A DNA stretch of 64,000 bases from Nitrospirota bacterium. Its GTDB lineage: Bacteria; Nitrospirota; UBA9217. The position numbers and the translations under genes were made by a program. This document shows positions 981-22,335 of the stretch, piece after piece; the stretch's first letter is position 1; each line of letters starts with the position of its first letter. A model generated the notes under the pieces. That model saw nothing but the letters and a program-made list of their open reading frames with translations, had not been told where the DNA came from and ran no database searches. The DNA is taken from contig JAGVOT010000052.1 in NCBI GenBank assembly GCA_020052615.1, forward strand, positions 1 to 64,000, read 5' to 3'.

Positions 981-2683
<1,703 letters not shown>

Positions 2684-2690
2684 GGGCATT

Positions 2691-3500: not shown

Positions 3501-3522
3501 GCGTTGCACGAAAAGAGGGATC

Positions 3523-5123: not shown

Positions 5124-5840
5124 CTACATCCCCTTCCTCAGCCGTTCCGCGAAATAGGGCGGGAGCCCGCTGGATGCGATCGCCGCTGCGGTCCTTTCGA
5201 CGTCATAGGGGACCCTGCTGAAATCAACGGCAGCGTCGTCCGGCGTTATCTCCAGCACGGTGAGGCACGCCCGCGGATCGCCGTCCTTGGGTTTGCCGAC
5301 GCTTCCGGCGTTGACAAAGATCCTGCCGTCAAGTTCTTTCCGGTAGGGTTTATGCGTATGTCCGTAGACCAGGATGTCGGCGTCGGCCTTCCCGGCCATC
5401 TCCAGAAAGAACTTCTCCGGGCGGTCCTCGTACCAGTAGAGGTTGTTCTTGTGCGGAGCGGCATGAAATAGCTTCACCCGCTTTCCCTCCGCGAGGAACG
5501 ACCGTTCGGTCGGCAGTCCCTGCATATAGTCCCTGCTGCTCTGCGTGGCGTGCCCTTTCGTCCAGGCGAAGGACAGCTCCGCCATCTCGGCCTGCACGGG
5601 GTCCTCGTATTTGCAGCCGCAATGCTCCCGGTTGTTCGCAACCGCTTCGTCGTAATTCCCCTGGACCCCCTCGATGCCATGGGCCGCGAGAAAGTCCACG
5701 ACCTCGTTGACGAAGGGGGCATAGCCGCCCAGGTCGCCGAGATGGTACATGGCGTCAACGTTCCGGCCCGCGGCTTCCTGGTATGCCGCCGATAAGGCAT
5801 CAATATTCCCGTGAATGTCACCGAACACCGCGATCTTCAT
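5124..5840 (-). CDS. Calcineurin-like metallophosphoesterase (YfcE/MJ0936 type)
   Basis: Cytoplasmic binuclear-metal phosphoesterase of 238 aa. The full ligand set is visible: GDIHGN at residues 7-12, GDLGG near 35-39, GNYD at 61-64, a histidine in the FHAAP segment, and GHTH in the C-terminal half. Such proteins usually hydrolyse phosphodiesters; the natural substrate cannot be read from sequence. It is transcribed opposite to psiE and does not appear to have its own Pho box, although it sits inside the phosphorus-starvation island. It is too short and lacks the features needed to name it as the lipid-cleaving PlcP enzyme. Confidence 0.88.
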   Translation of the reverse strand: MKIAVFGDIHGNIDALSAAYQEAAGRNVDAMYHLGDLGGYAPFVNEVVDFLAAHGIEGVQGNYDEAVANNREHCGCKYEDPVQAEMAELSFAWTKGHATQSSRDYMQGLPTERSFLAEGKRVKLFHAAPHKNNLYWYEDRPEKFFLEMAGKADADILVYGHTHKPYRKELDGRIFVNAGSVGKPKDGDPRACLTVLEITPDDAAVDFSRVPYDVERTAAAIASSGLPPYFAERLRKGM

Positions 5841-6029: not shown

Positions 6030-6491
6030 ATGAAATACTTCAACAAGATCGTCGACGTCATGATCAAGTTCATGATACCCATCGTGATCATCGCCCTGCT
6101 GATGGGAATAGCGCGGGTCGTGCTCGACCTGCGCGCCGTGTTCGGCAGCGAGACCATCGCGGCGGGTTTCGACCGCATGGTGACCAACATCCTGTCGATG
6201 TTCATCGTCATCGAGCTCTTGCGCAGCATCATCGAGTACTTCGCCGTGCACCGGCTGAAGATCACCTTCATCACCGACGCCGCCCTGGTCTTCGTGCTGC
6301 GCGAGATCATGATCGGGCTCTACCAGCACAGCCTGGAACCGGGCATGATCATGGCGCTCTCGGCCCTGATCCTGGTGATAGGCGGCCTCCGGACGCTGGC
6401 CGTCGTCTTTTCCCCGGAAAAGTACCACGACCCCGAAGAGGAGAAACAACATGGACAACAGTATGAACAAGGACCGATGGGAAAAGCTTGA
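6030..6491 (+). CDS. psiE: PsiE-family phosphate-starvation-inducible membrane protein
   Basis: Inner-membrane protein of the PsiE family, induced by phosphate starvation in enteric bacteria and of unknown biochemical function. Four hydrophobic segments span residues 8-30, 48-66, 75-97 and 108-128, followed by a short charged tail. The length of 153 aa fits the family. I chose the ATG at 6030 (MKYFNK) because an upstream in-frame ATG at 5988 lies in the -10 region of the Pho promoter. A two-codon frame at 6025 (ATG CCA TGA) overlaps this start and may couple initiation. First gene of a Pho-controlled operon with a small membrane peptide and a glycosidase. Confidence 0.85.
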   Translation: MKYFNKIVDVMIKFMIPIVIIALLMGIARVVLDLRAVFGSETIAAGFDRMVTNILSMFIVIELLRSIIEYFAVHRLKITFITDAALVFVLREIMIGLYQHSLEPGMIMALSALILVIGGLRTLAVVFSPEKYHDPEEEKQHGQQYEQGPMGKA

Positions 6492-6555
6492 AGAGACCAT
6501 TCTGATCGTCATCGCCTTTGCGGGACTGCTCTTTATGGTGGTCTATTGGAAATGA
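6451..6555 (+). CDS. 34-aa single-span membrane peptide
   Basis: A small reading frame too short for usual gene callers. It has a good ribosome site (agaggag, 8 bases upstream). The protein has a charged N-terminus (MDNSMNKDRWEKLEE) and one hydrophobic helix (ILIVIAFAGLLFMVVYW) ending at Lys34. It overlaps the last 41 bases of psiE in another frame. Its stop overlaps the start of the next gene as ATGA, so it sits between two translationally linked genes. That arrangement, more than its composition, supports it as real. Function unknown; a partner of PsiE in the membrane is a guess. Confidence 0.6.
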   Translation: MDNSMNKDRWEKLEETILIVIAFAGLLFMVVYWK

Positions 6556-7835
6556 GCGAGGGTCAGCGGCAGGAACCCATGACGGCGCGCAAAAAGATCT
6601 TTCCCGACGACTTCCAGTGGGGTGTCGCGACCTCGGCCTTCCAGCTCGAAGGGTCGCCCCATGCCGACTGGACGAACTGGGACGCTGTACTGAGCGACAA
6701 GCCCGGGATCACCGGCCATTACAGCCTGTACAAGGAGGACCTTGCCCTCCTGAAGCAGATGAACGTGAATGCCTATCGTTTTTCCATCGAATGGAGCAGG
6801 ATCCAGCCGCGCGAAGACGCCTGGGACCATGATGCCGTGGCCCATTACCAGGAGATCATCGACATCCTCCGGGGCTACGGCATCGAGCCCATGGTCACGC
6901 TCCACCACTTCACCAATCCCCTCTGGTTCACGGCCAAATACCCCTGGCACGTGGACGGATCGGTAGAAAAGTTCACCGCCTATGCCGAGCGTGTCACAGC
7001 GGAGCTGACGGGCGTGAAATACTGGCTGACCTTCAACGAGCCCTATGTCATCCTGCTGGGAGGGTACCTGGAAGGCTGCACGCCGCCCGGTCTGCGCGAC
7101 GCCGGGAAGGCGCTCGCCGCGCTCAGGAACATCTTCACCTGCCACGGCAGGGCCTATGACATCATCCATAGCCGCGATCTCGGCGCCCAGGTGAGCATCG
7201 CCCACAACATGTCGGTCTTCGCGCCCTGGAAGAAATGGAACCCCCTCGACCGTATCCTGAAGAAGACCGCGAACTTCTTCTACAACCACTCGATCATCAA
7301 CGCATTCCAGACCGGCGTGTTCGTCGTCAAGTTCCCTTTTTCCCGGGCAGTGGAGATCCCCGTCCCGATCAAGGACAAGCTCGACTTCTTCGGCGTGAAC
7401 TATTACACCAGGATACATCTCCGCTTCAACCCCTTCAAGAAGATGGGCGTCGAGCTTCGCCACCTCGACCTGGACGGCCACGGCCTGACGAACATCGGTT
7501 GGGAAGTGCATCCCCGCGGCCTCGAAAAGGTCCTGCGGTACGCCTCGCGGCTCGGCCTGCCGCTCATTGTCACCGAGAACGGCATCGCGACCCACGATGC
7601 CCAGCGGAAGGCGGACTACATGAAGCGCCACGTGGACGTCGTGGAACGGTGCCTCCGGAGCGGCATCGATGTGCGCGGTTACTACTACTGGACCCTTATC
7701 GACAACTACGAGTGGCTCCTGGGCCTCGACGCCCGGTTCGGCCTGTACCGCGTGGACTTCAACACTCTCAAGCGCAGCCCCACGCCCGCCGCAGCCTACT
7801 ATTCCTACCTGATCGCCAGCAGGTCGCAGTTGTAA
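6552..7835 (+). CDS. Glycoside hydrolase family 1 (beta-glycosidase)
   Basis: Retaining beta-glycosidase with a complete family 1 active site: acid/base Glu163 in FNEP and nucleophile Glu342 in TENG. The N-terminal FQLEG, the LHHF at 117-120 and the C-terminal WTLIDNYEW segment also belong to the family. The length of 427 aa is normal. No signal peptide is present, so it is probably cytoplasmic. The start at 6552 overlaps the stop of the small membrane peptide; a second in-frame ATG at 6582 is possible. Its place in a Pho-box operon is unusual. Glycolipid or polysaccharide turnover during phosphorus starvation is a reasonable inference, but the sugar substrate is unknown. Confidence 0.9.
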   Translation: MSEGQRQEPMTARKKIFPDDFQWGVATSAFQLEGSPHADWTNWDAVLSDKPGITGHYSLYKEDLALLKQMNVNAYRFSIEWSRIQPREDAWDHDAVAHYQEIIDILRGYGIEPMVTLHHFTNPLWFTAKYPWHVDGSVEKFTAYAERVTAELTGVKYWLTFNEPYVILLGGYLEGCTPPGLRDAGKALAALRNIFTCHGRAYDIIHSRDLGAQVSIAHNMSVFAPWKKWNPLDRILKKTANFFYNHSIINAFQTGVFVVKFPFSRAVEIPVPIKDKLDFFGVNYYTRIHLRFNPFKKMGVELRHLDLDGHGLTNIGWEVHPRGLEKVLRYASRLGLPLIVTENGIATHDAQRKADYMKRHVDVVERCLRSGIDVRGYYYWTLIDNYEWLLGLDARFGLYRVDFNTLKRSPTPAAAYYSYLIASRSQL

Positions 7836-7885
7836 CGTAATCTTCACCTGCCTGTCATATTCCCGTAACAGAAGCGGCCTATCCT
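7830..7885 (+). promoter_or_regulatory. Pho box and promoter of the porin gene
   Basis: Four half-sites at 11-base steps: ttgtaac (7830), tcttcac (7841), ctgtcat (7852), ccgtaac (7863-7869). The -10 tatcct at 7880-7885 follows by exactly 10 bases. The first half-site contains the stop codon of the upstream glycosidase gene. Confidence 0.85.
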
Positions 7886-7954: not shown

Positions 7955-9106
7955 ATGAAAAAGGTTGTGGCAGGACTCGCAGTTGCAGTCATCAGCAGTT
8001 TCGGCTCCCTGGCAATGGCGGCAGAGGGCGATGCGCCGGCGGTCAGGGGCAACATCGAGATCTACGGCCAGGCAAAGATCTCCTACGACATGATCGACAC
8101 CGGCACGAAGTCTCCCGCGGCGGACGATACGCTGCACAAGGTCTCCACCAACTCGTCGCGCCTCGGCTTCAAGGGCGCCGAGGACCTCGGCGACGGCATG
8201 AACGCGGTCTTCCAGGTGGAGCTGGGCGTCAACCTGGACGGAACGCAGACAACCGTGGTCTCGAGCGTGACGCCGAGCCCGGTGACCTCGAAGACCACGG
8301 ACATCGACAAGATCACCTACCGGAACACCTTTGCCGGCATTCGCCACAAGGATATCGGCACGGTGCTGTTCGGCATCCATGACACTCCCTACAAGCTGTC
8401 CACGGGCAAGCTGGACCTCTTCGGCGACACCATGGCCGACTATAACGCGGTGATCGGCAACGTGAACGGATCGTCCAACTTCGACCTCCGGGCAAAGGAC
8501 ACGGTCGCGTTCCTGTCGTCCTCCTGGAGCGGCATCAGCATCGGCCTTTCGCGCTCCGTGACGGGATCGGAGTCGAACAACAACGGCGCCGGGAACACGA
8601 ACCTCACGTCGGCGTCGGTGACCTATGACGCCAAGCCCGTATTCGTCACGGCGGCCTACGAGGTCCACAAGAACGGCTACACGAGCTGGGATTCGGACGC
8701 ATACCAGAACACGGGCGCCAAGATCGGCGCGGGCGCTGTCTTCGGAGGCACGAAGGTCGGGGCGGTCTACGAGAAGATCGACGACGACAAGCCGAACTCC
8801 GACAAGACCCGCGCAGCCTTGTACGTCGCGGCCAGCCAGACCTTCGGAAAAGAGACGATAAAAATAGCCTTTGGCAAGGCCGATGACGGCGACAACCCGG
8901 CCACCAAGACGGGCGCCACGATGATGGCGGCCGGCATCGATCACTCCTTGTCAAAGCGCACCACCGTCTACGCCCTGTACGCAAAAACAAAGAACGACGA
9001 AAATGCCGCCTACGGACTCGGCCAGGGCGGCGCGGGCGGCTCCTTCACGCCGGCTGCCGGCGAGGACCCGTCCGTGGTCTCCTTCGGCATCAACCACTCG
9101 TTCTAA
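7955..9106 (+). CDS. Gram-negative porin (16-strand type), phosphate-starvation regulated
   Basis: Outer-membrane channel of the general porin family seen in Neisseria and Burkholderia. A signal peptide ends at about residue 22 (LAMAAEG). The mature protein starts with the typical NIEIYGQAKISYD strand, contains the SSRLGFKGAEDLGDGM segment that follows strand 2, and ends in an aromatic Phe (GINHSF) as needed for barrel assembly. Length 383 aa. The ribosome site aggagg precedes ATG 7955. It has its own Pho box and is followed by a strong terminator, so it is monocistronic. By analogy with PhoE and OprP it probably admits anions such as phosphate or phosphite; selectivity cannot be read from sequence. 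Confidence 0.88.
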   Translation: MKKVVAGLAVAVISSFGSLAMAAEGDAPAVRGNIEIYGQAKISYDMIDTGTKSPAADDTLHKVSTNSSRLGFKGAEDLGDGMNAVFQVELGVNLDGTQTTVVSSVTPSPVTSKTTDIDKITYRNTFAGIRHKDIGTVLFGIHDTPYKLSTGKLDLFGDTMADYNAVIGNVNGSSNFDLRAKDTVAFLSSSWSGISIGLSRSVTGSESNNNGAGNTNLTSASVTYDAKPVFVTAAYEVHKNGYTSWDSDAYQNTGAKIGAGAVFGGTKVGAVYEKIDDDKPNSDKTRAALYVAASQTFGKETIKIAFGKADDGDNPATKTGATMMAAGIDHSLSKRTTVYALYAKTKNDENAAYGLGQGGAGGSFTPAAGEDPSVVSFGINHSF

Positions 9107-9272: not shown

Positions 9273-9328
9273 TCGTAACAGAATCTTCACTATCCCGTAA
9301 TACTCCTGTAATACGGCATGGGTATCAT
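9273..9328 (+). promoter_or_regulatory. Pho box and promoter of the lipid-remodelling operon
   Basis: Four half-sites at 11-base steps: tcgtaac (9273), tcttcac (9284), ccgtaat (9295), ctgtaat (9306-9312). The -10 tatcat at 9323-9328 follows by exactly 10 bases. Transcription would begin at about 9335, almost on the start codon of the first gene. Confidence 0.87.
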
Positions 9329-9335
9329 TTCGACA

Positions 9336-10028
9336 ATGATGCTCTGCGATTTTCATATCCACACGACCTTCTCCGACGGTTCCCTGGACATGCGAACGAC
9401 CATCGACCTTTTCGGCCAGGCCGGCTTCGACGTGATCGCCATCACGGACCATGTGGTGAACGGGGATAATTCCATCGGCAAATTCGCCCGCACCTTCAAC
9501 CTCTCGGTGCGGGGAGACAACTTCGACGACTACCTTGCGACCATCCGTCAGGAGGCCGTGCGGGCCCGGGAAAAATACGGGATGCTGGTGATCCCGGGCG
9601 TCGAGATCAGCAAGAACTACATCTCCCGGGAGCGGTCGGCGCATCTGCTCCTTCTCGACATCAAGGAGTTCGTTCCCGCCTGCCTCGACTACGAAGAGAT
9701 ATTTCTCGACGCGAAGCGCCAGAACGCCCTGACCGTGGCCTGCCATCCCCACAACACGCCGGACCTCATGAACAAGGACACGCTCTTCCTCTGGAAGAAC
9801 CGGGACAAGTACGCGAAGTACATCGACGCCTGGGAGATCGCGAACCGCGACGACGTGTTCAACGTCATCAGCCTCAAGAAGTACAACTACATCGCCAACA
9901 GCGATTTCCACAAGGCCCGGCACCTGTACTCGTGGAAAACGCTCCTGAACTGCGACAAGAACGTCGATGCCGTGAAGAACTGCATCCGGCACAACAAGGG
10001 CGTGGCCATCACGCTCTTCCGGAACTAA
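9336..10028 (+). CDS. PHP-domain phosphoesterase
   Basis: Metal-dependent hydrolase of the PHP family (about 230 aa). All metal-binding motifs are present: HIH at residues 7-9, ITDH near 36, Glu in PGVEIS, CHPH in the middle, and a C-terminal SDFH. It is a single-domain protein with no signal peptide. The upstream in-frame ATG at 9318 lies before the predicted transcript start, so I chose 9336 (or 9339), which would make the message essentially leaderless. First gene of the Pho operon that carries a glycosyltransferase and an ornithine-lipid acyltransferase. A role in releasing phosphate from a small ester or from lipid is inferred from context only. Confidence 0.85.
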   Translation: MMLCDFHIHTTFSDGSLDMRTTIDLFGQAGFDVIAITDHVVNGDNSIGKFARTFNLSVRGDNFDDYLATIRQEAVRAREKYGMLVIPGVEISKNYISRERSAHLLLLDIKEFVPACLDYEEIFLDAKRQNALTVACHPHNTPDLMNKDTLFLWKNRDKYAKYIDAWEIANRDDVFNVISLKKYNYIANSDFHKARHLYSWKTLLNCDKNVDAVKNCIRHNKGVAITLFRN

Positions 10029-10038
10029 GGAGGTATCA

Positions 10039-11277
10039 ATGACCATCTTCATTGTATGCGCGATAATTTCGCTCGTAGGGATCATCCTTACCGTGGTCCA
10101 GGCGGGAACGGTCTGGACGACCCTCAAGAGGGACCGGAAACCCGACGCCCCGCCGTCCGGACAGGAAAGAACGTCCCCCCCGGTCTCGATCCTGAAACCG
10201 CTGCGCGGTCTGGACGACAACCTCTTCGACAACCTCTCCAGTTTCTGCACCCAGAACTATCCCGAGTACGAAATTCTCTTCTCCCTGCAAGACCGCAACG
10301 ATCCCGCCTACAAAGTCGCCAAGATGGTCCAGAACCGATATCCCGAAAGCAACATCACCATCGTCGTGGAGCGCTGCAGCGCCGGCCTCAATCCCAAAGT
10401 GAACAACCTCATCCCGGCATACCGGAAAAGCCGCCATCCTTTCATCCTGATCAGCGACAGCAACGTCATGGTCGGCAGGGACTACCTGACCGAGACCATG
10501 CGCCACACCCTGGACCCGTCGGTCGGGCTCGTCAGCAACCTGATCCGCGGAGTCGGCGGCGGCAGCCTCGGTGCATTGCTCGAGAACCTGCATTTGAACT
10601 CCTTCATCATCGGGAGCGTCAGCTTCCTCGACCGTTTCCTCGGCATGCCCTGCGTCATCGGCAAGTCCATGCTCATGAAGAAGGACGATCTGGAAGCGCT
10701 GGGCGGCCTCGAGGCCTTCAAGGACATCCTGGCCGAGGACTTCATCATCGGCAGGGAGATGCAAAAGTCCGGGAAGCGGGTCGTCCTGTCGAACTACCTG
10801 ATCAGCAACGTCAACGAGTACTGGGACATCAGGCGGTTCCTGAACCGCCATACGCGCTGGGGCAAGCTCCGGTGGCGGATCGGCGGGGCCAGGTATCTCT
10901 CCGAGCTCCTCGCCAATCCGGTCTTCATCGCCTTCCTGCCGGTCGCGCTCTGCGGGCCGTCGCGGCTGACCGCGGGCTTCGCAGCCCTGGCAAGCCTCAT
11001 CAAGGTCCTCTGCGATGCGATCACCGGGCGGCGTATCGAGGCGCAAGGAACCGACTACCCGTCCGCTGAACGGTCCCCCTTGACGTACCTCCTCGTTCCC
11101 CTCAAGGACATCATCATCGGCGTCCTGTGGTTCATCCCGCTCGTAAGCGCCACGGTCGTCTGGCGCGGGAACCGTTACCTCATCGGGCAGGATTCCCGCC
11201 TGTCGGCTTGCCCGGAGACGGGTGTGTGGTCGTGGGGATACCGCATTAGCGACGTTATCAAGGAACGGTTCGCTTAG
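10039..11277 (+). CDS. GT21-type (ceramide glucosyltransferase-like) membrane glycosyltransferase
   Basis: Integral membrane lipid glycosyltransferase of 412 aa. An N-terminal membrane helix (residues 2-22) is followed by a GT-A catalytic domain and two or three C-terminal membrane segments. The D1, D2, D3, (Q/R)XXRW series of ceramide glucosyltransferases is visible: Asp in LRGLDD, SDSNV, LAEDF, and RHTRW. GT21-like enzymes make glycosylceramides or, in some alphaproteobacteria, glycosyl-diacylglycerols during phosphate shortage; HpnI of hopanoid synthesis is another relative. The ribosome site aaggagg precedes the start, 10 bases after the PHP gene. In this Pho operon, synthesis of a phosphorus-free glycolipid is the likeliest role. 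The acceptor is unknown. Confidence 0.82.
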   Translation: MTIFIVCAIISLVGIILTVVQAGTVWTTLKRDRKPDAPPSGQERTSPPVSILKPLRGLDDNLFDNLSSFCTQNYPEYEILFSLQDRNDPAYKVAKMVQNRYPESNITIVVERCSAGLNPKVNNLIPAYRKSRHPFILISDSNVMVGRDYLTETMRHTLDPSVGLVSNLIRGVGGGSLGALLENLHLNSFIIGSVSFLDRFLGMPCVIGKSMLMKKDDLEALGGLEAFKDILAEDFIIGREMQKSGKRVVLSNYLISNVNEYWDIRRFLNRHTRWGKLRWRIGGARYLSELLANPVFIAFLPVALCGPSRLTAGFAALASLIKVLCDAITGRRIEAQGTDYPSAERSPLTYLLVPLKDIIIGVLWFIPLVSATVVWRGNRYLIGQDSRLSACPETGVWSWGYRISDVIKERFA

Positions 11278-11327
11278 ACTCAACCGCCCGGTACGGAAAC
11301 CGGCAGGACCTGAAAGGAGCCTCCGTC

Positions 11328-13178
11328 ATGAGCAGCAGTGTACAGGACCGCATCTTCAAGCTCCAGACCCCGTTCCCGGACCCTTTGAGGCGGGCGCTCT
11401 TCACCCTGATGCGGGGGCCGGTGGAACATATGCTCGCCTTCCCCCGTTTGAACGCGGCCTATGCCGATGTCCGTCGGCAGAGCGACGACCGCTCGTTCTT
11501 TGACAAGGCGCTCGAACGGCTCGGCGTCACCTACGATATTCCGTCGGACGACCTGCGGCGGCTGGCGCGGGTGAACGGCCCCGCCATCATCGTCGCGAAC
11601 CACCCCTTCGGCGGCATCGAAGGTATTATCCTGTCGTCACTCCTGACCTCCCTCCGGTGCGACGTCAAGTTCATGGCCAACCATCTCCTGGGCATCATCC
11701 CCGAGATGCGGGACCTTATCATCGCCGTGGACGTCTTCAACGTCATGGGTTCGGCCAGCCGGAACATCAGACCCCTCCGGGAGTGCATCAACCATGTCAG
11801 GAACGGCGGCATGCTGGTGGTGTTCCCCGCGGGAACGGTCTCCCACCTGGATGTCCAGAACGGCGCGGTCACTGACCCCGCCTGGAGCACCACGGTAGCG
11901 CGGCTCGTGCGGAAGACCGGCGCAACCGTGGTCCCCCTCTTCATTCACGGAATGAACAGCGCCTGGTTCCAGCTCGCCGGCTTCGTCCACCCCCTGTTCC
12001 GGACCGCCCTCCTGCCGAGCGAGCTTCTGAACAAGCAGCGCCGGGTCATTCAAATGCGGGTAGGATCACCCATCCCCTTCGAGCGGCTCGATCCCTTCTC
12101 GTGCGACGCGTTGATGACCGATCACCTCCGCTTCCGCACCTACATGATGGAGCGCATGACGCCGCCGGCGCCGCGCCGCGCCATACCGTCCCTGTCGCCT
12201 CGGACCATCGCCGTCGTTTCGGAGCGGGTCGCTGCGGCCCAGCACCCGCTCCTGATGGCCGAGGAGATAGCGATGCTCCCGGCCGACCAGGTGCTCGTCG
12301 AGAACGGCGACCAGATCGTGATCCAGGCGGAGGCGGGCCAGATCCCCTACCTCCTGTTCGAGGTCGGACGCCTGCGCGAGATCACGTTCCGGACCGTCGG
12401 AGAAGGGACCGGGAGATCCGTGGACCTGGACCGCTTCGACGACCACTACCTCCATCTGGTCATCTGGAACAAGGCGAAAGAGGAGGTGGTCGGCGCTTAC
12501 CGGATGGGAAAGGTGGACGAGATCATGAGGACGCGGGGGACCCGGGGCCTCTATACGAGCACCTTGTTCCGGTACGGGTCTGAACTGATCGAACGCCTGG
12601 GGGCCGCCCTGGAACTGGGCCGGTCGTTCATCCGCGCCGAGTATCAGCGTTCCTACGCGCCGCTCCTGCTGCTCTGGAAAGGGATCGGTCGATACATCGT
12701 TCGGAATCCGCGTTACAAGACTCTCTTCGGGCCGGTCAGCATCTCGAAGGAATACCAGGACCTTTCCCGCAGGATCATGGTCAGTTATCTGAAAGCTCAC
12801 TGTTTTCGGAAAGATCTTGCCGCGTTCGTGCGGCCCCGGACGGGCCTCCGGGACCGGCCTCTCAGGGGCCTGGACACCAATGCCGCGATGACCATCATGG
12901 GTGAAGACATCGATGGGCTGTCGTCCCTTATAGGCGAGATCGAGCCCGACGGGAAAGGCGTGCCTGTCCTGATCCGCCAGTACCTCAAGCTGAACGGCGG
13001 CATACTGGGATTCAATATCGACAAGGATTTCGGCAATGTTCTCGACGCGCTCATTATGGTCGATCTTACGCGGACCGATCCGAAAATAATCCCGCGTTAT
13101 CTGGGCAAGGACGGAGCCGAGGCGTTTCTCGCATACCAGGGAGTGGACACGAGCAGCGGGTTCGCAACCTGCGCGTGA
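11328..13178 (+). CDS. olsF: OlsF-type bifunctional acyltransferase for ornithine lipid
   Basis: Two-domain protein of 616 aa. The N-terminal half is a PlsC-like acyltransferase with NHPFGGIEG at residues 91-99 and FPAGT at 166-170. The C-terminal half (about 300-490) is a GNAT-like N-acyltransferase of the OlsB type, recognisable from ELGRSFIRAEYQ and LLLLWKGIGRY. Fusions in this order are the OlsF proteins of Serratia and Flavobacterium, which acylate ornithine and then add the second chain, giving ornithine lipid without OlsA and OlsB. The product contains no phosphorus, which fits the Pho box upstream. Ribosome site aaggag before ATG 11328. The substrate could also be another amino acid such as lysine or glycine. 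Confidence 0.82.
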   Translation: MSSSVQDRIFKLQTPFPDPLRRALFTLMRGPVEHMLAFPRLNAAYADVRRQSDDRSFFDKALERLGVTYDIPSDDLRRLARVNGPAIIVANHPFGGIEGIILSSLLTSLRCDVKFMANHLLGIIPEMRDLIIAVDVFNVMGSASRNIRPLRECINHVRNGGMLVVFPAGTVSHLDVQNGAVTDPAWSTTVARLVRKTGATVVPLFIHGMNSAWFQLAGFVHPLFRTALLPSELLNKQRRVIQMRVGSPIPFERLDPFSCDALMTDHLRFRTYMMERMTPPAPRRAIPSLSPRTIAVVSERVAAAQHPLLMAEEIAMLPADQVLVENGDQIVIQAEAGQIPYLLFEVGRLREITFRTVGEGTGRSVDLDRFDDHYLHLVIWNKAKEEVVGAYRMGKVDEIMRTRGTRGLYTSTLFRYGSELIERLGAALELGRSFIRAEYQRSYAPLLLLWKGIGRYIVRNPRYKTLFGPVSISKEYQDLSRRIMVSYLKAHCFRKDLAAFVRPRTGLRDRPLRGLDTNAAMTIMGEDIDGLSSLIGEIEPDGKGVPVLIRQYLKLNGGILGFNIDKDFGNVLDALIMVDLTRTDPKIIPRYLGKDGAEAFLAYQGVDTSSGFATCA

Positions 13179-13193
13179 ACCAGGGAGGTGATC

Positions 13194-13370
13194 ATGAATA
13201 CGACATCGCAATCAACAGGCCTGATCGACGCTGTGACGTCGTTCATGCAGAAGTTCAGCCATCTGACCGAATGGTTCCTCGTGGTGCTCGGCGTCATCCT
13301 GTTCTGCTATGCCTTCGCCAGGGGCACGGCAGAGCGGAAAGCCGCGGACCATGGTATCCACGGAAACTAG
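13194..13370 (+). CDS. 58-aa single-span membrane protein
   Basis: Small protein between olsF and an ATPase-domain gene, preceded by a good ribosome site (ggaggtg). The N-terminal 25 residues are polar. One hydrophobic helix (WFLVVLGVILFCYAFA, about residues 28-43) is followed by a charged tail ending HGIHGN. No known domain is recognised. Short spacing on both sides places it in the Pho operon. It may be an accessory subunit of the membrane lipid enzymes encoded upstream, but nothing in the sequence proves that. Confidence 0.65.
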   Translation: MNTTSQSTGLIDAVTSFMQKFSHLTEWFLVVLGVILFCYAFARGTAERKAADHGIHGN

Positions 13371-13413: not shown

Positions 13414-14226
13414 ATGGAACTGTATGCCCCGCACCACGCCGGCATCCCGGCGGCAGCATCCCCGGCAGCGGCCGAAGCGGCTTCTTCGGACCCCGCACAG
13501 CAGCCACGGGCCCGGAAGGCTCCGCGCATTACCCGTCAGGATCTCCGCGAGCTCTTCTCGCTCACCCGCACCCTGGGAGAACTGGTCGAAGAGGTGGGCA
13601 AAAACTCGGCGCACGGTCCCGCCGGGAACATGGAGCAAAGCCTTTCCCTGCTCATTACGGGCGCTTCCCGTTTAAGCGCCGCAGCGGAGAACCTCCGGGA
13701 ACGTTCGAACGCGGGGAACACGCAGGGCGGCATCTTCTGGGAACAGTTCGACGTCAAGGACCTGTTCCAGGTCCTGATGATCTCAACGCGCGTGCTTGTC
13801 GGCGGCAAGCCGGTAAAAGTGGAAATGGTCTCCGGCGACGGGCCGCTCACCCTGTGGTCGGACAGCGACAAGGTCATGCAGATCGCGTCGGACCTGCTCG
13901 GCAACGCAGCGCGGTACACGGACCGGGGCAGGATCACCCTCATTCTCGGCAGGCAGCAGGACCAACTGATGCTCATGGTGACCGACACGGGCAAAGGGAT
14001 GACTGAAGCCGACGTCAAGCGCGTCACATCCCGCATGAACGACCGCGCCGGAAGGAGGACCTCCGGCTCACGCGCAGGCGATGCCGGTCTGATTCGGACC
14101 AACGCATTGGTGGAACTCCTGGGAGGAAAGCTTTCCCTTGCCAGCAGATTGAACGAGGGCACCATCGTTGAGGTCCGGCTGCCTCTTGGCCCCTCCGCGC
14201 GGAAAACGCTCCCGACCGGAAGCTGA
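13414..14226 (+). CDS. Histidine-kinase-like ATPase domain protein without phosphoacceptor histidine
   Basis: Protein of 270 aa with an Ala/Pro-rich N-terminus, a helical middle (residues 40-95) and a C-terminal HATPase_c domain. The N-box asparagine (LLGNAARYT) and the DTGKGM G1 box are present, but the G2 lid is altered (GDAGLIRTNAL instead of a GLGL series). No HisKA H-box precedes it, so it cannot autophosphorylate in the usual way. The ATPase region is clearly related to those of the kinases at 15758 and 17707, especially in the segment (I/L)(L/F)xGxKPVxV. I chose ATG 13414 because aaggaggt lies just upstream. A role as a kinase regulator, or as a degenerate relic, is possible. Confidence 0.72.
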   Translation: MELYAPHHAGIPAAASPAAAEAASSDPAQQPRARKAPRITRQDLRELFSLTRTLGELVEEVGKNSAHGPAGNMEQSLSLLITGASRLSAAAENLRERSNAGNTQGGIFWEQFDVKDLFQVLMISTRVLVGGKPVKVEMVSGDGPLTLWSDSDKVMQIASDLLGNAARYTDRGRITLILGRQQDQLMLMVTDTGKGMTEADVKRVTSRMNDRAGRRTSGSRAGDAGLIRTNALVELLGGKLSLASRLNEGTIVEVRLPLGPSARKTLPTGS

Positions 14227-14242
14227 CGGCGAGGTCCCGCAT

Positions 14243-14467
14243 ATGAGCGCAAAACGGGATCGAAATGGCAGGTCCGATGCGCCCATGCCCGGCATGTCCG
14301 ATCCGCACTCCCGCTCCGCCGCCTGTGATGCCGAGGCGCGGACCAGGAAGACCACTCTGCCACCGTGCCTTTATTATGACAGCGTAACGCAGTTCTTCTG
14401 CCTGCTCAGCAGGCGGAAACGCCGCGAACAGGGAGTCTCTTCCTGTACCGGTTGTTCGGGTTCGTGA
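14243..14467 (+). CDS. Putative 74-aa cysteine-containing protein
   Basis: A small frame following the ATPase-domain gene by 16 bases. The N-terminus is polar and low in complexity. The second half (PPCLYYDSVTQFF, then CLLSRRKRR and SSCTGC) holds four cysteines spaced like a possible metal- or redox-binding cluster. A weak gcgagg ribosome-like site precedes the ATG at 14243. No family is recognised. It would be the last gene of the lipid-remodelling operon; the next Pho box begins 50 bases later. Chance translation is possible, so confidence is limited. Confidence 0.4.
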   Translation: MSAKRDRNGRSDAPMPGMSDPHSRSAACDAEARTRKTTLPPCLYYDSVTQFFCLLSRRKRREQGVSSCTGCSGS

Positions 14468-14516
14468 CTGTCACGAGACTTCGCCGGTCTGCGCCTTGCC
14501 GTCCGTTCCCCCTTGC

Positions 14517-14572
14517 CGGTCACGAGAATTTCATCGTTCTGTAATACTCCTGTAACAACCGCACTGTACTCT
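14517..14572 (+). promoter_or_regulatory. Pho box and promoter of the signalling cluster
   Basis: Four half-sites at 11-base steps: cggtcac (14517), atttcat (14528), ctgtaat (14539), ctgtaac (14550-14556). The -10 tactct at 14567-14572 follows by exactly 10 bases. Transcription would begin near 14578, which argues against a GTG start at 14574. Confidence 0.82.
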
Positions 14573-14591
14573 TGTGACAGACGATATCGAA

Positions 14592-15770
14592 ATGATCACG
14601 CTCATGACCAAGAAAGTCCGATCATCATTGACAGACCACGCACCGGCCCCGAAGACCCATAAGGGGTCCGTCAACCTCCCTGACGCGCGCCCGCTGGTGC
14701 TGATCGTCGAGGACGAACCCGACGTCGCCGAACTGATCCGGTACAACCTTGCCCGGGAAGGATATGCGACGCTTATCGCCGAGTCCGGGGATAAAGCCGT
14801 CGATGAGGCGCTCCAGTCGACGCCGGATCTCATCCTCCTGGATATCATGCTTCCCGGGATGAACGGCTGGGAGGTGTGCCAGACCATCCGCGACAGCGCG
14901 AAGGGTAGGCATGTCCCCATCATCATGGTCTCGGCGTTGACCACCGAAGAAAGCCGGATCAAGGGGCTTTCGCTCGGGGCCGACGACTATATCATCAAGC
15001 CCTTCTCCGTACAGGAACTCCTGATCAAGGTCCGAAATATCGTGGGAAGGTACGCCCTCGTCAAGAAGCTCAGGTTGCGGGAGCAGGACCAGGATACAGC
15101 AATGCGTTACATGGTCCATGAGCTGCGCAACTCCCTGTCCTCGATCGGGGGTTTTTCTTCACTTGCACTGCAAAAAGACCATGCGAATAAATACCTTCGA
15201 ACGATAAACAATGCTGCTTGCCATGCGGAAAGCCTACTGAATGATGCATCGCTTCTCTCCCGGCTGGAGGGTGGAAAAGAGCGTTTGTCCATCGGTCCGG
15301 TCGAAGTCGGTGTGCTGGTCGACGAATCAGCTGATTTCCTCCGCGATGCGGCTAAAGGATCAAAGATCGAAATAACTGTGAAAAACAGCGCGACAGCACT
15401 TGTCCAGGGGAACAGAACGGCCATCAGACAGATCATGATCAATCTGATATCCAATGCCATAAAGTATAACCGCTCCGGTGGAAAGGTCCTGATCTCCTTC
15501 GACGCCGAAAATGACAGAGTGAACATCTCCATACAGGATGAGGGGAACGGAATAACGCAAGCCGAGCTCAGCCGAATATTCGACAAGTTCTATCGCGCTA
15601 CCGGGAGCGAACAGGTAAAAGGCGCGGGACTCGGCCTGTATATCGTCAAACTTCTGACCGATGCCATGGGCGGAGAGATCACGGTCGTCAGCCGGCAGGG
15701 GAAAGGCAGCACGTTTACGGTTTCACTCATTCTGCATGAAGGGAACACGGCGGCCGTATGCAGGCGATAA
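14592..15770 (+). CDS. Hybrid response-regulator/histidine kinase (REC-HisKA-HATPase)
   Basis: Cytoplasmic signalling protein of about 392 aa with its receiver domain in front of the kinase. The receiver (about residues 30-150) has acidic VEDEPD, phosphoacceptor Asp in LLDIMLPGM, and Lys in IIKPF. The H-box is YMVHELRNSLSSI, and the ATPase domain has N-box NLISNAIKYN, G1 DEGNGI and G2 GAGLGL, so it should be active. There is no membrane segment and no DNA-binding output domain, so it is not PhoB or PhoR in the usual sense. It may act as a phosphorelay hub for the adjacent kinase and receiver. The start is ATG 14592 or 14604; neither has a strong ribosome site. It overlaps the next gene by 13 bases. 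Confidence 0.86.
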   Translation: MITLMTKKVRSSLTDHAPAPKTHKGSVNLPDARPLVLIVEDEPDVAELIRYNLAREGYATLIAESGDKAVDEALQSTPDLILLDIMLPGMNGWEVCQTIRDSAKGRHVPIIMVSALTTEESRIKGLSLGADDYIIKPFSVQELLIKVRNIVGRYALVKKLRLREQDQDTAMRYMVHELRNSLSSIGGFSSLALQKDHANKYLRTINNAACHAESLLNDASLLSRLEGGKERLSIGPVEVGVLVDESADFLRDAAKGSKIEITVKNSATALVQGNRTAIRQIMINLISNAIKYNRSGGKVLISFDAENDRVNISIQDEGNGITQAELSRIFDKFYRATGSEQVKGAGLGLYIVKLLTDAMGGEITVVSRQGKGSTFTVSLILHEGNTAAVCRR

Positions 15771-16945
15771 CGGCGCGGGAAAGCATGCTTTCCGTCGGAG
15801 AGCTCATCGTATCCAAAGAGCATACGACGCCGCAGAACCTGGTGAACAACGTTGCAGAGCGATTCTTCAGCTCGACCGACCTGGACGCGATGGCGGTAAT
15901 CGAGGGGACCGAACCGGTGGGTCTTGTTACCCGACCGAAGCTGCTCTTTACGCTGTTCCGCCGGTTCGGCTTCGAGCTCTACGGAAAACATCCCGTCATC
16001 GCGATAGCCGATACCATGCCGCTCATCGTTCCCGAGAACGAGCGGCTCGATGTGGTCATTGACAAAGCGCTCGAGCGGACGCCCCAGGACATCTATGACG
16101 AGATCATCGTAACATCGGCGGCGGGCGCCTACAAGGGACTCCTGTCGGTCAAGCAGCTCGTGGTCCAGCAGAGCAACGCCCTTGCAAGCAGCGTGCTGCA
16201 AAAGGAGATCGCCAGCGCGCGGGCGCGTGAGCTGGAAAAGATCAATCAGGTCAAGTCCCGGTTCCTCGCGAACGTCACCCACGAGCTTCGCTCCCCCGTG
16301 AACGCCATTATCGGACTTGCCGAGCTGCTGCGCATGTCGGCGGACAAGGGCTCGATCGAGCAGATCAAAGAACGTCTTTCCTTTATGATATCGAGCGCTA
16401 CGAACCTCAGGACCGTCATCACCAATATCCTCGATCTGTCGAAGATCGAAGCAGGTAAGATGGAAGTATCGTACCAGGAGGTCAATGCAGTATCGCTGAT
16501 AAACGAGATCGCGGAAACGACCCGCATCTTTCTCGGGAAAAAGCCGGTCACCGTGGCGGTATCGGCGCCCGACCTTCCCATGAGCATAATCACCGATCCC
16601 ATCAAACTTCGGCAGGTCCTCATGAACCTGGCGAGCAATGCGGCAAAATTCACCGAGTCCGGCAGCATCGGTCTCAAACTTTCCATCGTCGGAAAAAGCA
16701 TGGCGATAGCCGTCAGCGACACCGGTATCGGGATCAAAGAAGAGGACCTCGGAACGCTTTTCACCGCCTTCGGCCAGATCGAAGATGCCAAAACAAAGAT
16801 ATATGAAGGCACGGGGCTTGGACTGACGATCAGTAAGAATCTTGTCGAGCTTATCGGCGGTACGATCTCGATCAGCAGCATTTACGGCAAGGGAACGACA
16901 TTCATTGTTTCTCTGCCGCTCACCAGCAAACAAGGGAGGACTTAA
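15758..16945 (+). CDS. Sensor histidine kinase with N-terminal CBS-like domain
   Basis: Soluble kinase of 395 aa. Residues 1-125 resemble the CBS-pair region of some GGDEF proteins (PVGLVTRPKLLFTLF followed by GLLSVKQLV), a likely ligand- or nucleotide-sensing input. The HisKA H-box is FLANVTHELRSPVNAIIG. The ATPase domain is intact, with NLASNAAKFT, DTGIGI and GTGLGL. It overlaps the hybrid kinase gene by 13 bases and is followed after two bases by a lone receiver, which is the obvious phosphotransfer partner. Lacking membrane segments, it must read a cytoplasmic cue, for example phosphate status through PhoU or a metabolite. Confidence 0.87.
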   Translation: MQAITARESMLSVGELIVSKEHTTPQNLVNNVAERFFSSTDLDAMAVIEGTEPVGLVTRPKLLFTLFRRFGFELYGKHPVIAIADTMPLIVPENERLDVVIDKALERTPQDIYDEIIVTSAAGAYKGLLSVKQLVVQQSNALASSVLQKEIASARARELEKINQVKSRFLANVTHELRSPVNAIIGLAELLRMSADKGSIEQIKERLSFMISSATNLRTVITNILDLSKIEAGKMEVSYQEVNAVSLINEIAETTRIFLGKKPVTVAVSAPDLPMSIITDPIKLRQVLMNLASNAAKFTESGSIGLKLSIVGKSMAIAVSDTGIGIKEEDLGTLFTAFGQIEDAKTKIYEGTGLGLTISKNLVELIGGTISISSIYGKGTTFIVSLPLTSKQGRT

Positions 16946-16947
16946 CC

Positions 16948-17328
16948 ATGCAGAATAAAAAGAAAAAGGTGCTCGTGGTCGACGATGACGAAATGCATCT
17001 TTACACCACGAAAGAACTGCTCCAGAACAATCTCATCGAGGTCAGCACCCACAAGAACTGGCTTGGCGTAACGAACCGGGTGAGGGAATTCGAGCCCGAT
17101 CTTGTGTTGCTCGATATCAACATGCCGGGTCTGTCGGGTGACAAGCTCTCCACGATCATCAAGCCTTATTGCGACGCGACCCGGACCCCAATTGTCTTCC
17201 ATTCTTCCAATGACGAAGAAAGTTTGAGAGAGCTTGTTGAAAATCACGGTGTCAGCGGGTATATCTGCAAAGGCAACATCATCGATCTGCGAAGCAAGGT
17301 GAACCGGTATCTCAGGCTGCAGGCGTAG
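16948..17328 (+). CDS. Single-domain response regulator (receiver only)
   Basis: Lone receiver of 126 aa. The acidic pocket is D12-D13-D14, the phosphoacceptor is Asp56 (LLDINMPG), the switch Ser is in IVFHSSND, and the conserved Lys is in YICKGN. There is no output domain, so it should work through protein contact or as a phosphate shuttle to the hybrid kinase upstream. A ggagg ribosome site lies inside the end of the kinase gene. A broken paralogue follows at 17362. Confidence 0.88.
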   Translation: MQNKKKKVLVVDDDEMHLYTTKELLQNNLIEVSTHKNWLGVTNRVREFEPDLVLLDINMPGLSGDKLSTIIKPYCDATRTPIVFHSSNDEESLRELVENHGVSGYICKGNIIDLRSKVNRYLRLQA

Positions 17329-18427: not shown

Positions 18428-19438
18428 ATGAAAAAAGCAGCAGCACTCGTTCTCGCAGTACTTATGTCAACCCTTGCAGTGACCGTCCATGCCGAAGAGA
18501 CCCTGAACGGCGCGGGCGCCACGTTCCCGGCCCCCGTTTACTCCGCCTGGGCATACGAGTACAACAAGGTCACGGGGACCAAGCTCAACTATCAGTCCAT
18601 CGGTTCAGGCGGCGGTATCAGGCAGATCACGGAGCGGACGGTCGACTTCGGCGCCTCTGATGCGCCGTTGGCCTCGGAAAAACTTGCCAAGGACAACTTG
18701 CTCCAGTTCCCGGCCGTTATCGGCGGCGTCGTTCTCGTCGTCAATGTGCCCGGCATCAAGGCGGGTGAGCTGAAACTGGATTCGGATGCGGTCTGCAAGA
18801 TCTACCTGGGCGAGATCAAGACCTGGAACGATGCAAAGATCAAGAGCATGAACCCCAAAGCGAGCCTGCCTGCGAGCGACATCACCGTGGTCCACCGTTC
18901 CGACGGGTCCGGCACCACGGCAATATTCACGGACTACCTGAGCGGCATATGCCCCGCCTGGAAGGAAAAAGTCGGTTCCGGAACAGCCGTAAGTTGGCCT
19001 GCGGGAATCGGCGGCAAAGGCAACGAAGGCGTTGCCAACTATGTGAAGCAGCAAAGCAACTCGATCGGTTACGTTGAGTTCGCGTATGCCAAGCAGAACA
19101 ATATGGCCTATACCCTGCTGAAGAACGCGGCCGGGATCTTTGTAGCGCCGAGCTTTGCAAGCTTCGAGGACGCCGCCGCGACAGGCGATTTCGACCCCAA
19201 AAAGGACTTCTATCTCTGGCTCAACAACGCCAAGGGCAAAAAATCATGGCCCATCGCGGGCGCTACGTTCATCCTCCTCGCTAAGGACAAGAAGGATTCG
19301 AACATGAAAACCGTTAAGTTCTACGACTGGGCGTTCAAGAACGGGGCGAACAAGGCAAAGGAACTGATCTATGTCCCCCTGCCGAAATCGTTGCAGGACA
19401 AGATAAGAACATACTGGAAGGCGAACGGCATCCTCTAG
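18428..19438 (+). CDS. pstS: Periplasmic phosphate-binding protein PstS
   Basis: High-affinity phosphate-binding component of the Pst importer, 336 aa with a signal peptide cleaved near residue 22 (VTVHAEE). Family motifs are clear: GAGATFPAPVYSAW at the mature N-terminus, the phosphate-binding SGGGIRQI and FGASDAPL segments, and HRSDGSGTTAIF. A strong aaggagg ribosome site precedes ATG 18428. A Pho box lies upstream, and a hairpin with a T-run downstream should keep pstS expression above that of pstCAB. Confidence 0.95.
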   Translation: MKKAAALVLAVLMSTLAVTVHAEETLNGAGATFPAPVYSAWAYEYNKVTGTKLNYQSIGSGGGIRQITERTVDFGASDAPLASEKLAKDNLLQFPAVIGGVVLVVNVPGIKAGELKLDSDAVCKIYLGEIKTWNDAKIKSMNPKASLPASDITVVHRSDGSGTTAIFTDYLSGICPAWKEKVGSGTAVSWPAGIGGKGNEGVANYVKQQSNSIGYVEFAYAKQNNMAYTLLKNAAGIFVAPSFASFEDAAATGDFDPKKDFYLWLNNAKGKKSWPIAGATFILLAKDKKDSNMKTVKFYDWAFKNGANKAKELIYVPLPKSLQDKIRTYWKANGIL

Positions 19439-19493
19439 CGTCCGATTCGTCTTTCAAACCGTTGTCTATATTTAATACTGTTGTGATTTGACA

Positions 19494-19541
19494 CCGAAGG
19501 GTCGGATAGGTATAATCGCGTATCCGGCCCTTCGGCTTTTT
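19494..19541 (+). terminator. Terminator/attenuator hairpin between pstS and pstC
   Basis: A 15-bp stem with one G-T wobble (19494-19508 with 19521-19535) and a 12-base loop, followed by cttttta. It lies after pstS and before pstC, suggesting partial termination that reduces transporter mRNA relative to the binding protein. It also rules out the long upstream start for pstC at 19488. Confidence 0.85.
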
Positions 19542-19586
19542 ATTATTCTCAGCACCTGCTGTTCACCTCCATCAGGGAGCCATAGC

Positions 19587-20528
19587 TTGGCAACGTCAAA
19601 CAAAAAGAACGTCCTCGACCTCTCATTTTCCCTGATTACGGCGGTCGCATCTCTCTCGATCATCTTCATCATTGTCGGCATTTTCTGGATCCTCGTCCGC
19701 GAATCCGCGCCCGCCATCCATAAATTCGGTTTCATCGACTTTCTCATTTCAACAGAATGGAACCCCGTCAAGGAGCTATTCGGCGCGGCTGCGAACATCT
19801 CAGGAACGTTTATGACCACCGCGCTTGCGCTGCTCTTCGCCGTGCCCACCGCGATCGGCATCGCCATCTTCGTGACTGAAGTGGCTCCCAATTTCCTCAA
19901 GGGCCCCGTCGGCATCGCCATCGAACTGCTGGCGGCCATCCCGAGCATCATCTACGGCATGTGGGGGCTCTTCACCCTGGCCCCGATCATGAGCAGGCAT
20001 ATCGAACCATTCTTACAGAAAACCCTCGGAAAGCTGCCGGTGCTCGAGGTCCTGTTCCGCGGCACGCCGCTCGGCATCGACATCCTGACGGCCAGCGTGA
20101 TCCTTGCCATCATGATCATCCCCTTCACCGCGAGCATCGCCCGGGACTCCTTCAACCTCACCCCGGCGGTGGTGAAGGAATCGGCGTACGCCCTCGGCGC
20201 CACGCAGTGGGAGGTGGTGAAGAACATCGTACTCCCCTATTCCAAGCTGGGCGTGTTCGGCGGGATCGTGCTCTCCCTGGGCAGGGCCCTGGGCGAGACC
20301 ATGGCCGTTGCCTTCGTGCTCGGCAACAACCACAAGATCGCCACCTCCTTCCTCGATGCGGCAGCGACCATCACCGTGACGCTGGCAAACGAGTTCACCG
20401 AGGCGGACAGCGATATCTATCTCTCATCGCTTTACTATCTTGCGCTCGTGCTGTTCGTAATGAGCTTTATCGCACTGGCGATAGCAAAACTGATGCTCAT
20501 CCGCGCCGAGAGGAAGTACTCACGTTAA
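19587..20528 (+). CDS. pstC: Phosphate ABC transporter permease PstC
   Basis: Inner-membrane permease of about 313 aa with six predicted spans. The permease EAA-like loop is visible around KESAYALGATQWEVV, followed by GRALGETMAVAFVLG, a strong PstC feature. I chose the TTG at 19587 (MATSNKKN) because agggag lies seven bases upstream. The open frame reaches back to 19488, but that part reads through the terminator hairpin. Pairs with PstA to form the phosphate channel. Confidence 0.92.
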   Translation: MATSNKKNVLDLSFSLITAVASLSIIFIIVGIFWILVRESAPAIHKFGFIDFLISTEWNPVKELFGAAANISGTFMTTALALLFAVPTAIGIAIFVTEVAPNFLKGPVGIAIELLAAIPSIIYGMWGLFTLAPIMSRHIEPFLQKTLGKLPVLEVLFRGTPLGIDILTASVILAIMIIPFTASIARDSFNLTPAVVKESAYALGATQWEVVKNIVLPYSKLGVFGGIVLSLGRALGETMAVAFVLGNNHKIATSFLDAAATITVTLANEFTEADSDIYLSSLYYLALVLFVMSFIALAIAKLMLIRAERKYSR

Positions 20529-20540
20529 GAACCGGAAGAG

Positions 20541-20630
20541 TTTGAGAGGGTAAGAGGGAAGGAAGGTATGAATACAGAATCAAGAGAAATGCTGCCTTTG
20601 CTTACCTTCCTACCTTCTTACGTTCGTACC
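20541..20630. repeat. Word-repeat hairpin element between pstC and pstA
   Basis: The left arm (20541-20569) is built of gagggtaa/gggaaggaaggta words. The right arm (20600-20630) is their inverted form (cttaccttcctaccttctta). The centre is AT-richer. The same word family occurs at 53281-53378. Confidence 0.7.
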
Positions 20631-20643
20631 GTCAGGATTTGAC

Positions 20644-21486
20644 ATGGACATCGAACAAAAACGCAAAATCGAGAGCATTGTCGCCCTTGTCTTCAGTACG
20701 CTGGCGGCCTTCGCGGGCCTGTTCTGGCTCGTCTTCATCCTGGGCGACGTCATCGTCCACGGCATCGGCGCGCTCAAGCTCAGCCTGTTCTTCAACGATC
20801 CTGTCCCCGCGGGCATGGCCGGAGGAGGCCTCAGGCATGCCATGGTCGGCCAGCTGATGACCACCTTCTTCGCGACGCTCATCGGCGTTCCCGTCGGCGT
20901 CCTGGGGGGCACGTTCCTCGCCGAGTATGCCCGGCGGACGAAATACGCCCGGGTGATCAGCGTCCTGGCGGACATCATCGTGAGCGTTCCGTCGATCGTC
21001 ATCGGCACGTTCATCTACGCCATCATGGTGAGGCCCCTGGGGCACTTCAGCGGCTGGGCGGGATCGGTCGCCCTCTCGCTGATCATGATCCCGGTGGTCC
21101 TGAGGACGACGGAAGACATGCTGTCCATGGTGCCGTGGACACTGCGGGAAGCGGCCTTCGCCCTCGGGGCGCCGTACTACAAGGTCATCATCCAGGTCGT
21201 CTACCGGGGCGCCGCGACCGGCATCCTGACCGGCATCCTGCTCTCCATCGCGCGGGTGGCCGGTGAGACGGCCCCGCTCATGTTCACTTCGTTCAATAAT
21301 AATTTCTTCTCCTGGGACATGAGCAGACCCATGGCCTCGCTGACCGTCACGATATTCCAGTACGCCATGGGGCCGTACGACGACTGGCACCAGCAGGCCT
21401 GGGCCGCCTCCTTTGTCATCACGGTGTTCATCCTCATTCTGACGCTCCTGGGCAGATTCGTCCTCAAGTGGAGGTTCAAGCAGTGA
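20644..21486 (+). CDS. pstA: Phosphate ABC transporter permease PstA
   Basis: Second permease subunit of the Pst importer, 280 aa with six predicted spans. The family signature [18 protein letters not shown] and the loop [16 protein letters not shown] are visible, as is [15 protein letters not shown] near the end. The start is ATG 20644 after a short gap filled by a repeat element. Its stop overlaps the pstB start (GTGA), indicating coupled translation. Functions as a heterodimer with PstC. Confidence 0.94.
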
Positions 21487-22247
21487 CGCTCGACATCGAA
21501 TTTTCGGTCAAGAACCTGGATTTCTTTTATAACGGCGATAACCATGCGCTGAAAGACGTTACCCTGCCCATTCACCGCAACCAGGTCACCGCGTTGATCG
21601 GGCCGTCGGGCTGCGGCAAGACCACCCTGCTCCGGTGCTTCAACCGCATGCACGACCTCTACCCGCGCCACCGCTATGAAGGGGAGATCATCTTCGAGGA
21701 CAGGAACATCCTGGCTGACGATGTGGACCTGATCAAGCTCCGGAGCCGCATCGGGATGGTCTTCCAGAAACCCACGCCGTTCCCCATGTCCATCGCCGAG
21801 AACATCGCCTACGGCCTCCGACTTAAAGGCGTGCGCAACAAGAGCGAACTGACCGGGCGGATCGAACAGGCGCTCAAGAACGCAGCGCTCTGGGAAGAGG
21901 TGCGCGACAAAATGAACGCCAATGCCTATGACCTGTCGGGAGGGCAGCAGCAGCGGCTGGTCATTGCCCGGGCGCTTGCCGTGGAGCCCGAGGTGCTGCT
22001 CTTCGACGAGCCGACATCGGCTCTCGATCCCATTTCCACGGCAAAGATCGAGGAGCTGGTGGTCACCCTGAAGAAGCACATTACCATCATCATCGTCACC
22101 CATAACATGCAGCAGGCGGCCCGGGTCTCCGACATGACGGGATTCATGTACCTCGGCGAACTCATCGAGTTCGGCTCGACGGAGAAGATCTTCACCGCTC
22201 CGGAAAAGAAGCAGACCGACGATTACATCACGGGAAGGTTCGGGTAG
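21483..22247 (+). CDS. pstB: Phosphate ABC transporter ATP-binding protein PstB
   Basis: ATPase of the Pst phosphate importer, 254 aa. Walker [10 protein letters not shown] is at residues 40-48, signature LSGGQQQR in the middle, Walker [13 protein letters not shown] and the H-loop in IVTHNMQQ. I chose the GTG at 21483, which overlaps the pstA stop and has ggagg seven bases upstream; a second GTG at 21468 is possible. Also takes part in phosphate signalling with PhoU in known systems. Confidence 0.95.
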
Positions 22248-22250
22248 AAG

Positions 22251-22320
22251 CAGTGCAAAGTGCGGATGCGAAGTGCGACGTATAGATCCATTGAATCTTG
22301 AATGTTGAATTTTGAATTCT
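22251..22320. repeat. Word-repeat sequence between pstB and phoU
   Basis: cagtgcaaagtgcggatgcg (22251-22270), then aagtgcg, words of the gtgcggagtgcgg family seen at 39602, 50269 and 54194, followed by ttgaatcttgaatgttgaat (22291-22310) type tandem words. It fills most of the 88-base gap. Confidence 0.65.
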
Positions 22321-22335
22321 CCGAAGGAGATCACC

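Follow-up and report, generated by a model that had tools for sequence, protein, structure and literature searches.

The stretch of DNA considered here, 64,000 nucleotides of contig JAGVOT010000052.1 from an uncultured Nitrospirota bacterium (hereafter the window), contains a phosphate gene cluster in which the genes of a GH1 beta-glycosidase, a PHP-family metallo-phosphoesterase and a GT21 glycosyltransferase (GT) belong to a conserved cassette. The gene content of this cassette, its promoter, its phylum-wide linkage and the clade of its GT, which is not the hopanoid enzyme HpnI, were established by computation. In our opinion, the cassette is probably (about 60%) a PhoB-controlled membrane-lipid module for glycolipid synthesis under phosphate starvation, with diacylglycerol or ceramide as the acceptor and PHP as a putative lipid phosphoesterase.

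A survey of 296 Nitrospirota genomes showed PHP in 55, and the search for GT in the same sample was sharply bimodal, with 55 genomes at E ~1e-172 or better and the others at ~1e-70 or weaker. Of the 56 genomes that have PHP or a cassette-grade GT, 54 have both (the overlap of two separate search lists), with adjacent genes among the pairs listed; the two exceptions, G267 with GT only and G293 with a fragment of PHP, are perhaps due to broken contigs. In 20 Nitrospirota loci cut with wide flanks, GH1 adjoins the PHP–GT pair in all but one; in G055 and G059 it lies on the opposite strand, ~2.5 kb off. Genes of the pst/phoU group were found within 8 of these 20 loci against ~1% expected (p about 1e-11, assuming a 1% background). 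PHP is also present in 5 out of 247 Acidobacteriota genomes, three times in the order GH1–PHP–GT; one of the latter loci adjoins phoU, a kinase, a regulator and pstB, and in a fourth genome PHP stands beside pstSCA. None of 349 Pseudomonadota genomes contained PHP, and a search for cassette relatives in plasmids gave none.

Earlier, a sequence-only reading of the window had proposed here a Pho-controlled operon for phosphorus-free lipids, composed of PHP, GT, an OlsF acyltransferase and a 58-amino-acid membrane protein. All four are present and co-directional behind a Pho box. As a conserved trio, PHP–GT–OlsF had to be given up: it is confined to the family of the window's own genome, where some members keep it (L032, L034, L035), and in L059 of the same family kinase genes directly follow GT and no olsF is present there. 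The 58-amino-acid protein has an 80% identical copy behind olsF in the same-genus genome G002 and was found in that genus only. Since GH1–PHP–GT recurs much more widely, PHP–GT–OlsF is only a family-level extension of it; the conserved unit is GH1–PHP–GT, and OlsF and the 58-amino-acid protein are local additions. Thus, the genes of the proposed operon stand as read, but the unit is larger, as GH1 belongs to it.

Some other loci extend this picture. An orthologue of the YfcE-type metallophosphoesterase of the window directly follows the cassette GT in the other Nitrospirota loci L089, L090, L091 and L098 and may be a fourth cassette member. Short PHP fragments in genus g3 (L042 of G004, 1504-1596, with psiE nearby, and L049 of G010, 1504-1563, with a GH1 fragment) seem to be what is left of a decayed cassette. 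In the Acidobacteriota locus L124 (6884-8387), a PHP homologue is preceded by the gene of a different, GT2-like glycosyltransferase and followed by that of a possible outer-membrane protein and pstSCA.

The PHP gene is preceded by a Pho box of two 11-bp repeats, CCGTAATACTCCTGTAATA, then by 9 nt and the hexamer TATCAT. A pattern of box, spacer and -10 element, derived from the promoters of the cluster and scanned over the whole 4.0-Mb genome (a MAG), gave five matches, all inside the cluster (psiE, porin, PHP, the kinase gene at 14574 and pstS), and the reversed control gave none in the same genome; the pattern is circular for its five source sites, but not for the lack of matches elsewhere. 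Relatives keep the same layout, namely the box, 9 nt, a TATNAT-like -10 element, 7–8 nt and the ATG of PHP. With a matrix built from the other boxes of the window, the PHP box being left out, 28 of 32 regions upstream of PHP in other Nitrospirota families scored above the 95% shuffle level and 25 above the 99% level; in the control, a stretch within the PHP gene, it was 1 of 31. Pho control of the PHP operon, anticipated in the sequence-only reading, is therefore well supported, both by this conserved promoter arrangement and by the pst/phoU/psiE neighbourhood.

PHP almost certainly starts at ATG 9336; an alternative start at 9318 was discarded, as it falls downstream of the Pho box but still ahead of the -10 element. 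Because the spacing from box to ATG is the same in relatives, the mRNA is probably leaderless and begins at this ATG. Strong Shine–Dalgarno sequences precede GT (AAGGAGG), OlsF, the 58-amino-acid gene and the next kinase gene, and none precedes PHP. More CTGTCAT-type repeats with 11-bp spacing, at 60507-60535 and 35137-35165, are possible Pho boxes or chance occurrences.

The GT carries a Glyco_transf_21 domain, the DSN, AED and RxxRW-type (RHTRW) motifs and, by hydropathy, a membrane helix near the N-terminus and several more towards the C-terminus. Its best solved relative is the ceramide glucosyltransferase 26qf (profile E 1.1e-60). In family, domain, lipid acceptor class and helices at both ends it resembles UGCG and the rhizobial processive Pgts, but it forms a bacterial clade of its own and is linked with PHP and GH1. 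The best NCBIfam match, TIGR03472, suggested HpnI of the same GT superfamily, i.e., an enzyme transferring N-acetylglucosamine onto bacteriohopanetetrol. This assignment was rejected and is highly improbable. The score, 257.8 bits, lies below the curated cut-off of 310. A hopene cyclase over the cut-off is missing in 19 of 24 carriers surveyed, own genome included, and the cassette GT is unlinked to hopanoid genes, whereas the five cyclase-positive carriers hold a second GT, which in four of them is located no more than 6 kb from the cyclase. Finally, in a tree of 40 rows, the cassette GTs of both phyla and UGCG, the latter on a long branch, split from all HpnI-like sequences at 100/100.

What follows on the individual reactions, on the sugar and its acceptor and on the part played by PHP is inferred. 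When phosphate falls, PHP and GT (here together with olsF) would be transcribed from the Pho-box promoter, and the membrane-embedded GT would transfer a hexose from a sugar nucleotide to a neutral lipid, diacylglycerol or (dihydro)ceramide, to give a phosphorus-free glycolipid. PHP would most likely strip phosphate or a phospho-headgroup, freeing the acceptor and recovering phosphate, which is the job of PlcP in marine Proteobacteria. The most likely task of GH1 would be to trim, recycle or transfer the glycosyl group, and OlsF may add an amino lipid in the own family, of the ornithine type or perhaps with glycine or another amino acid. The glycolipid step is the firmest part of this scheme and the substrate of PHP the weakest.

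The PHP protein shares about 43% identity, as well as fold and metal motifs, with TM0559 (2anu), a Thermotoga PHP protein without assigned function (E 4.5e-63; Foldseek 7.4e-20). The structure model used has a mean pLDDT of 73.5, with low confidence in parts, and the match with 2anu rests on sequence too. The metal-ligand motifs HxH, D, H, E, HPH and DFH are invariant in 26 sequences and place the protein in the PHP superfamily. GH1 is a predicted cytosolic protein, which keeps the catalytic motifs TFNEP and TENG. By both sequence and fold, its top match and nearest solved GH1 structure is BGPh (1vff) from Pyrococcus horikoshii, with 37% identity against 25–33% for the remaining fold matches in the list. 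The Pyrococcus enzyme is associated with the membrane and has a preference for long-alkyl glucosides (PMC4687101).

The same proteins could be read otherwise. PHP might take phosphate from nucleotides or RNA and GH1 might recycle sugars, both as cytosolic scavengers, while the GT would make an envelope glycolipid independently and the Pho regulator alone would be common to them. Pho regulons often include unrelated scavenging genes, the fold relatives of PHP are RNase AM and nucleotide phosphatases, and GH1 has intact catalytic motifs and no membrane helix. Nevertheless, we consider this explanation unlikely, as the co-occurrence and adjacency of PHP and GT over two phyla and many families exceed what shared regulation usually gives, and the best match of GH1 is an alkyl-glucosidase. 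Another proposal, quite unlikely in our estimate, is that GH1 acts as a glycolipid transglycosylase like plant SFR2, a galactolipid transferase of the GH1 family, and extends the monoglycosyl lipid of the GT to di- or oligoglycosyl lipids. The position of GH1 alongside a lipid GT in nearly all extended loci and the membrane association of its best match speak for such a function, but retaining GH1 enzymes mostly hydrolyse.

The nature of the acceptor depends on which lipids the carriers can offer. Diacylglycerol is a normal intermediate in phospholipid turnover. Concerning ceramide, at least one synthase of the SPT (serine palmitoyltransferase)/BioF family was found in each of 12 carriers tested; five of eight classified synthases fit SPT best and three fit BioF, the own genome having one of each. 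A gene triple SDR–SPT–GNAT is present in 5 of 6 genomes inspected, with SPT models below the cut-off and the CerR and bCerS candidates assigned by family. In the own genome this triple, probably for ceramide synthesis, is situated on another contig (L151, 7361-10679; G000:C66). It fits the known clustering of cerR, spt and bcerS (PMC11334938, PMC11087976). Because of these synthases and triples, ceramide would in principle be available to carriers.

It is conceivable, if somewhat improbable, that the acceptor is ceramide and that the cassette is a glycosphingolipid module, in which a bacterial glucosylceramide synthase is accompanied by its own glucosidase and PHP strips the headgroup of a phosphosphingolipid. 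The GT is nearest to a ceramide glucosyltransferase and stands on its side of the tree, and the triple occurs in the own genome as well as in four more of those inspected. In Caulobacter, glycosphingolipids are regulated by PhoB (PMC6445935). In serpentinite fluids, a correlation was seen between Thermodesulfovibrionia sequences and ceramides with one and two glycosyl residues (1G and 2G), and between Acidobacteria and 1G ceramides, and glycosyl-diethers peak in a well dominated by Thermodesulfovibrionia (PMC10667739). This environmental link is a correlation only and no more than a hint at the cassette. Against ceramide, its putative operon shows no linkage with the cassette and had no match in the genome-wide scan with the Pho promoter pattern, SPT scores are sub-threshold, UGCG is on a very long branch, and diacylglycerol was reported as the acceptor of GT21-family Pgts (PMC8231724).

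Several points weigh against a PhoB-controlled lipid module as a whole. The Nitrospirota matrix finds no Pho box upstream of the Acidobacteriota PHP genes. GH1 is situated upstream of the Pho box that precedes PHP and may belong to a separate transcript. Neither PHP nor GH1 has a predicted membrane helix, and the nearest characterised fold relatives of PHP act on nucleotides or RNA, so a lipid substrate for it is a guess. SPT was searched in cassette carriers only, so its co-occurrence with the cassette has no negative control. We know of no biochemistry for any cassette member, TM0559 included. The OlsF-type protein, which has a PlsC/OlsA-like N-terminal and a GNAT/OlsB-like C-terminal domain and aligns over its full length, scores 381.9 bits with NF052615 (E 5.1e-114), below the curated cut-off of 620, and is therefore to be filed as OlsF-like. 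Grouping with non-lipid GNAT fusions was also checked and did not hold, because this protein matches lipid acyltransferases. The theme of phosphorus-free lipids is well supported by a lipid-type GT21, the OlsF architecture and the phosphate neighbourhood.

Pho-driven replacement of phospholipids is already known, chiefly in Proteobacteria that employ PlcP and Agt, and glycolipid remodelling by PlcP and a GT is the precedent (PMC8231724). The PlcP–Agt operons of SAR11, roseobacters and rhizobia resemble the cassette in Pho control, in a phosphoesterase gene beside a lipid glycosyltransferase gene and in a predicted phosphorus-free glycolipid. They differ in that the cassette has a PHP fold in place of the PlcP metallophosphoesterase (the gene beside the GT is of the PHP family and not a plcP homologue), GT21 in place of GT4 and an extra GH1, and in that it belongs to Nitrospirota and Acidobacteriota, with PHP lacking in the Pseudomonadota sample. 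Phosphate-limited Desulfovibrio alaskensis G20 likewise combines an Agt glycolipid with an OlsF ornithine lipid (PMC5193443), but no PHP or GH1 was described for that response. Literature on the PHP/GT/Pho combination and on phosphate-limited Nitrospirota gave no description of the cassette, subscription papers being largely outside the search, and the parts and taxa of the cassette are new to us.

We would suggest only tentatively, and as a rather doubtful case, that GH1–PHP–GT21 is an undescribed phosphate-starvation glycolipid pathway, leading probably to a glycosphingolipid, with a PHP-fold enzyme as a novel type of lipid phosphoesterase in the place of PlcP and a dedicated GH1 that recycles or extends the glycolipid. 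Such a pathway could contribute the glycosyl-ceramides, and perhaps also the glycosyl-diethers, that have no known makers in phosphate-poor subsurface fluids. If the lipid module itself is real, it would allow phosphorus-free lipids to be traced by a gene marker in Nitrospirota and Acidobacteriota, and it would provide a first function for TM0559-type PHP proteins and a testable gene source for the glycolipids of phosphate-poor fluids.

Table 1. Cassette genes, promoter elements and neighbouring features in the window.
Feature	Position	Strand	Evidence or remark
PhnCDE/PtxABC-type transporter genes, then D-2-hydroxyacid dehydrogenase	981-4596		upstream of cassette
YfcE-type metallophosphoesterase	5124..5840	-	TIGR00040, 69.9 bits
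PsiE-like membrane protein, phosphate-starvation family	6030..6491	+	PF06146 E 3.7e-11; Pho-type promoter 5954-5987
GH1 beta-glycosidase, first gene of conserved cassette	6552..7835	+	PF00232 5.8e-81
Porin, between GH1 and PHP here	7955..9106	+	PF13609 1.1e-41; own Pho-type promoter 7852-7885
Pho box (9295-9313) and -10 TATCAT (9323-9328) of PHP operon	9295..9328	+	
PHP-family metallo-phosphoesterase, 230 amino acids	9336..10028	+	PF02811 E 9e-08
GT21 glycosyltransferase	10039..11277	+	Glyco_transf_21 PF13506 4.6e-45
OlsF-architecture acyltransferase, 616 amino acids	11328..13178	+	NF052615, PF19576, PF13444
Single-helix membrane protein, 58 amino acids, ATG 13194	13194..13370	+	helix 24-42
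Histidine kinase/response regulator genes of phosphate cluster	13414..17328	+	gene at 14574 with own Pho-type promoter (14539)
pstSCAB-phoU	18428..23016	+	TIGR00975, TIGR02138, TIGR00974, TIGR02135 over cut-off; promoter 18345

Among the neighbouring genes, pstB of the pstSCAB-phoU group was identified from its own sequence. Two histidine-kinase-like proteins (13414-14226 and 17707-18285) contain an ATPase domain and gave no match with the HisKA phosphoacceptor domain in the Pfam scan. The 2-hydroxyacid dehydrogenase at the beginning of the window matches only general models of such dehydrogenases, below the cut-off. A weak Pho box is located near 880, before the transporter genes, and uptake and oxidation of phosphite are possible functions of this region.

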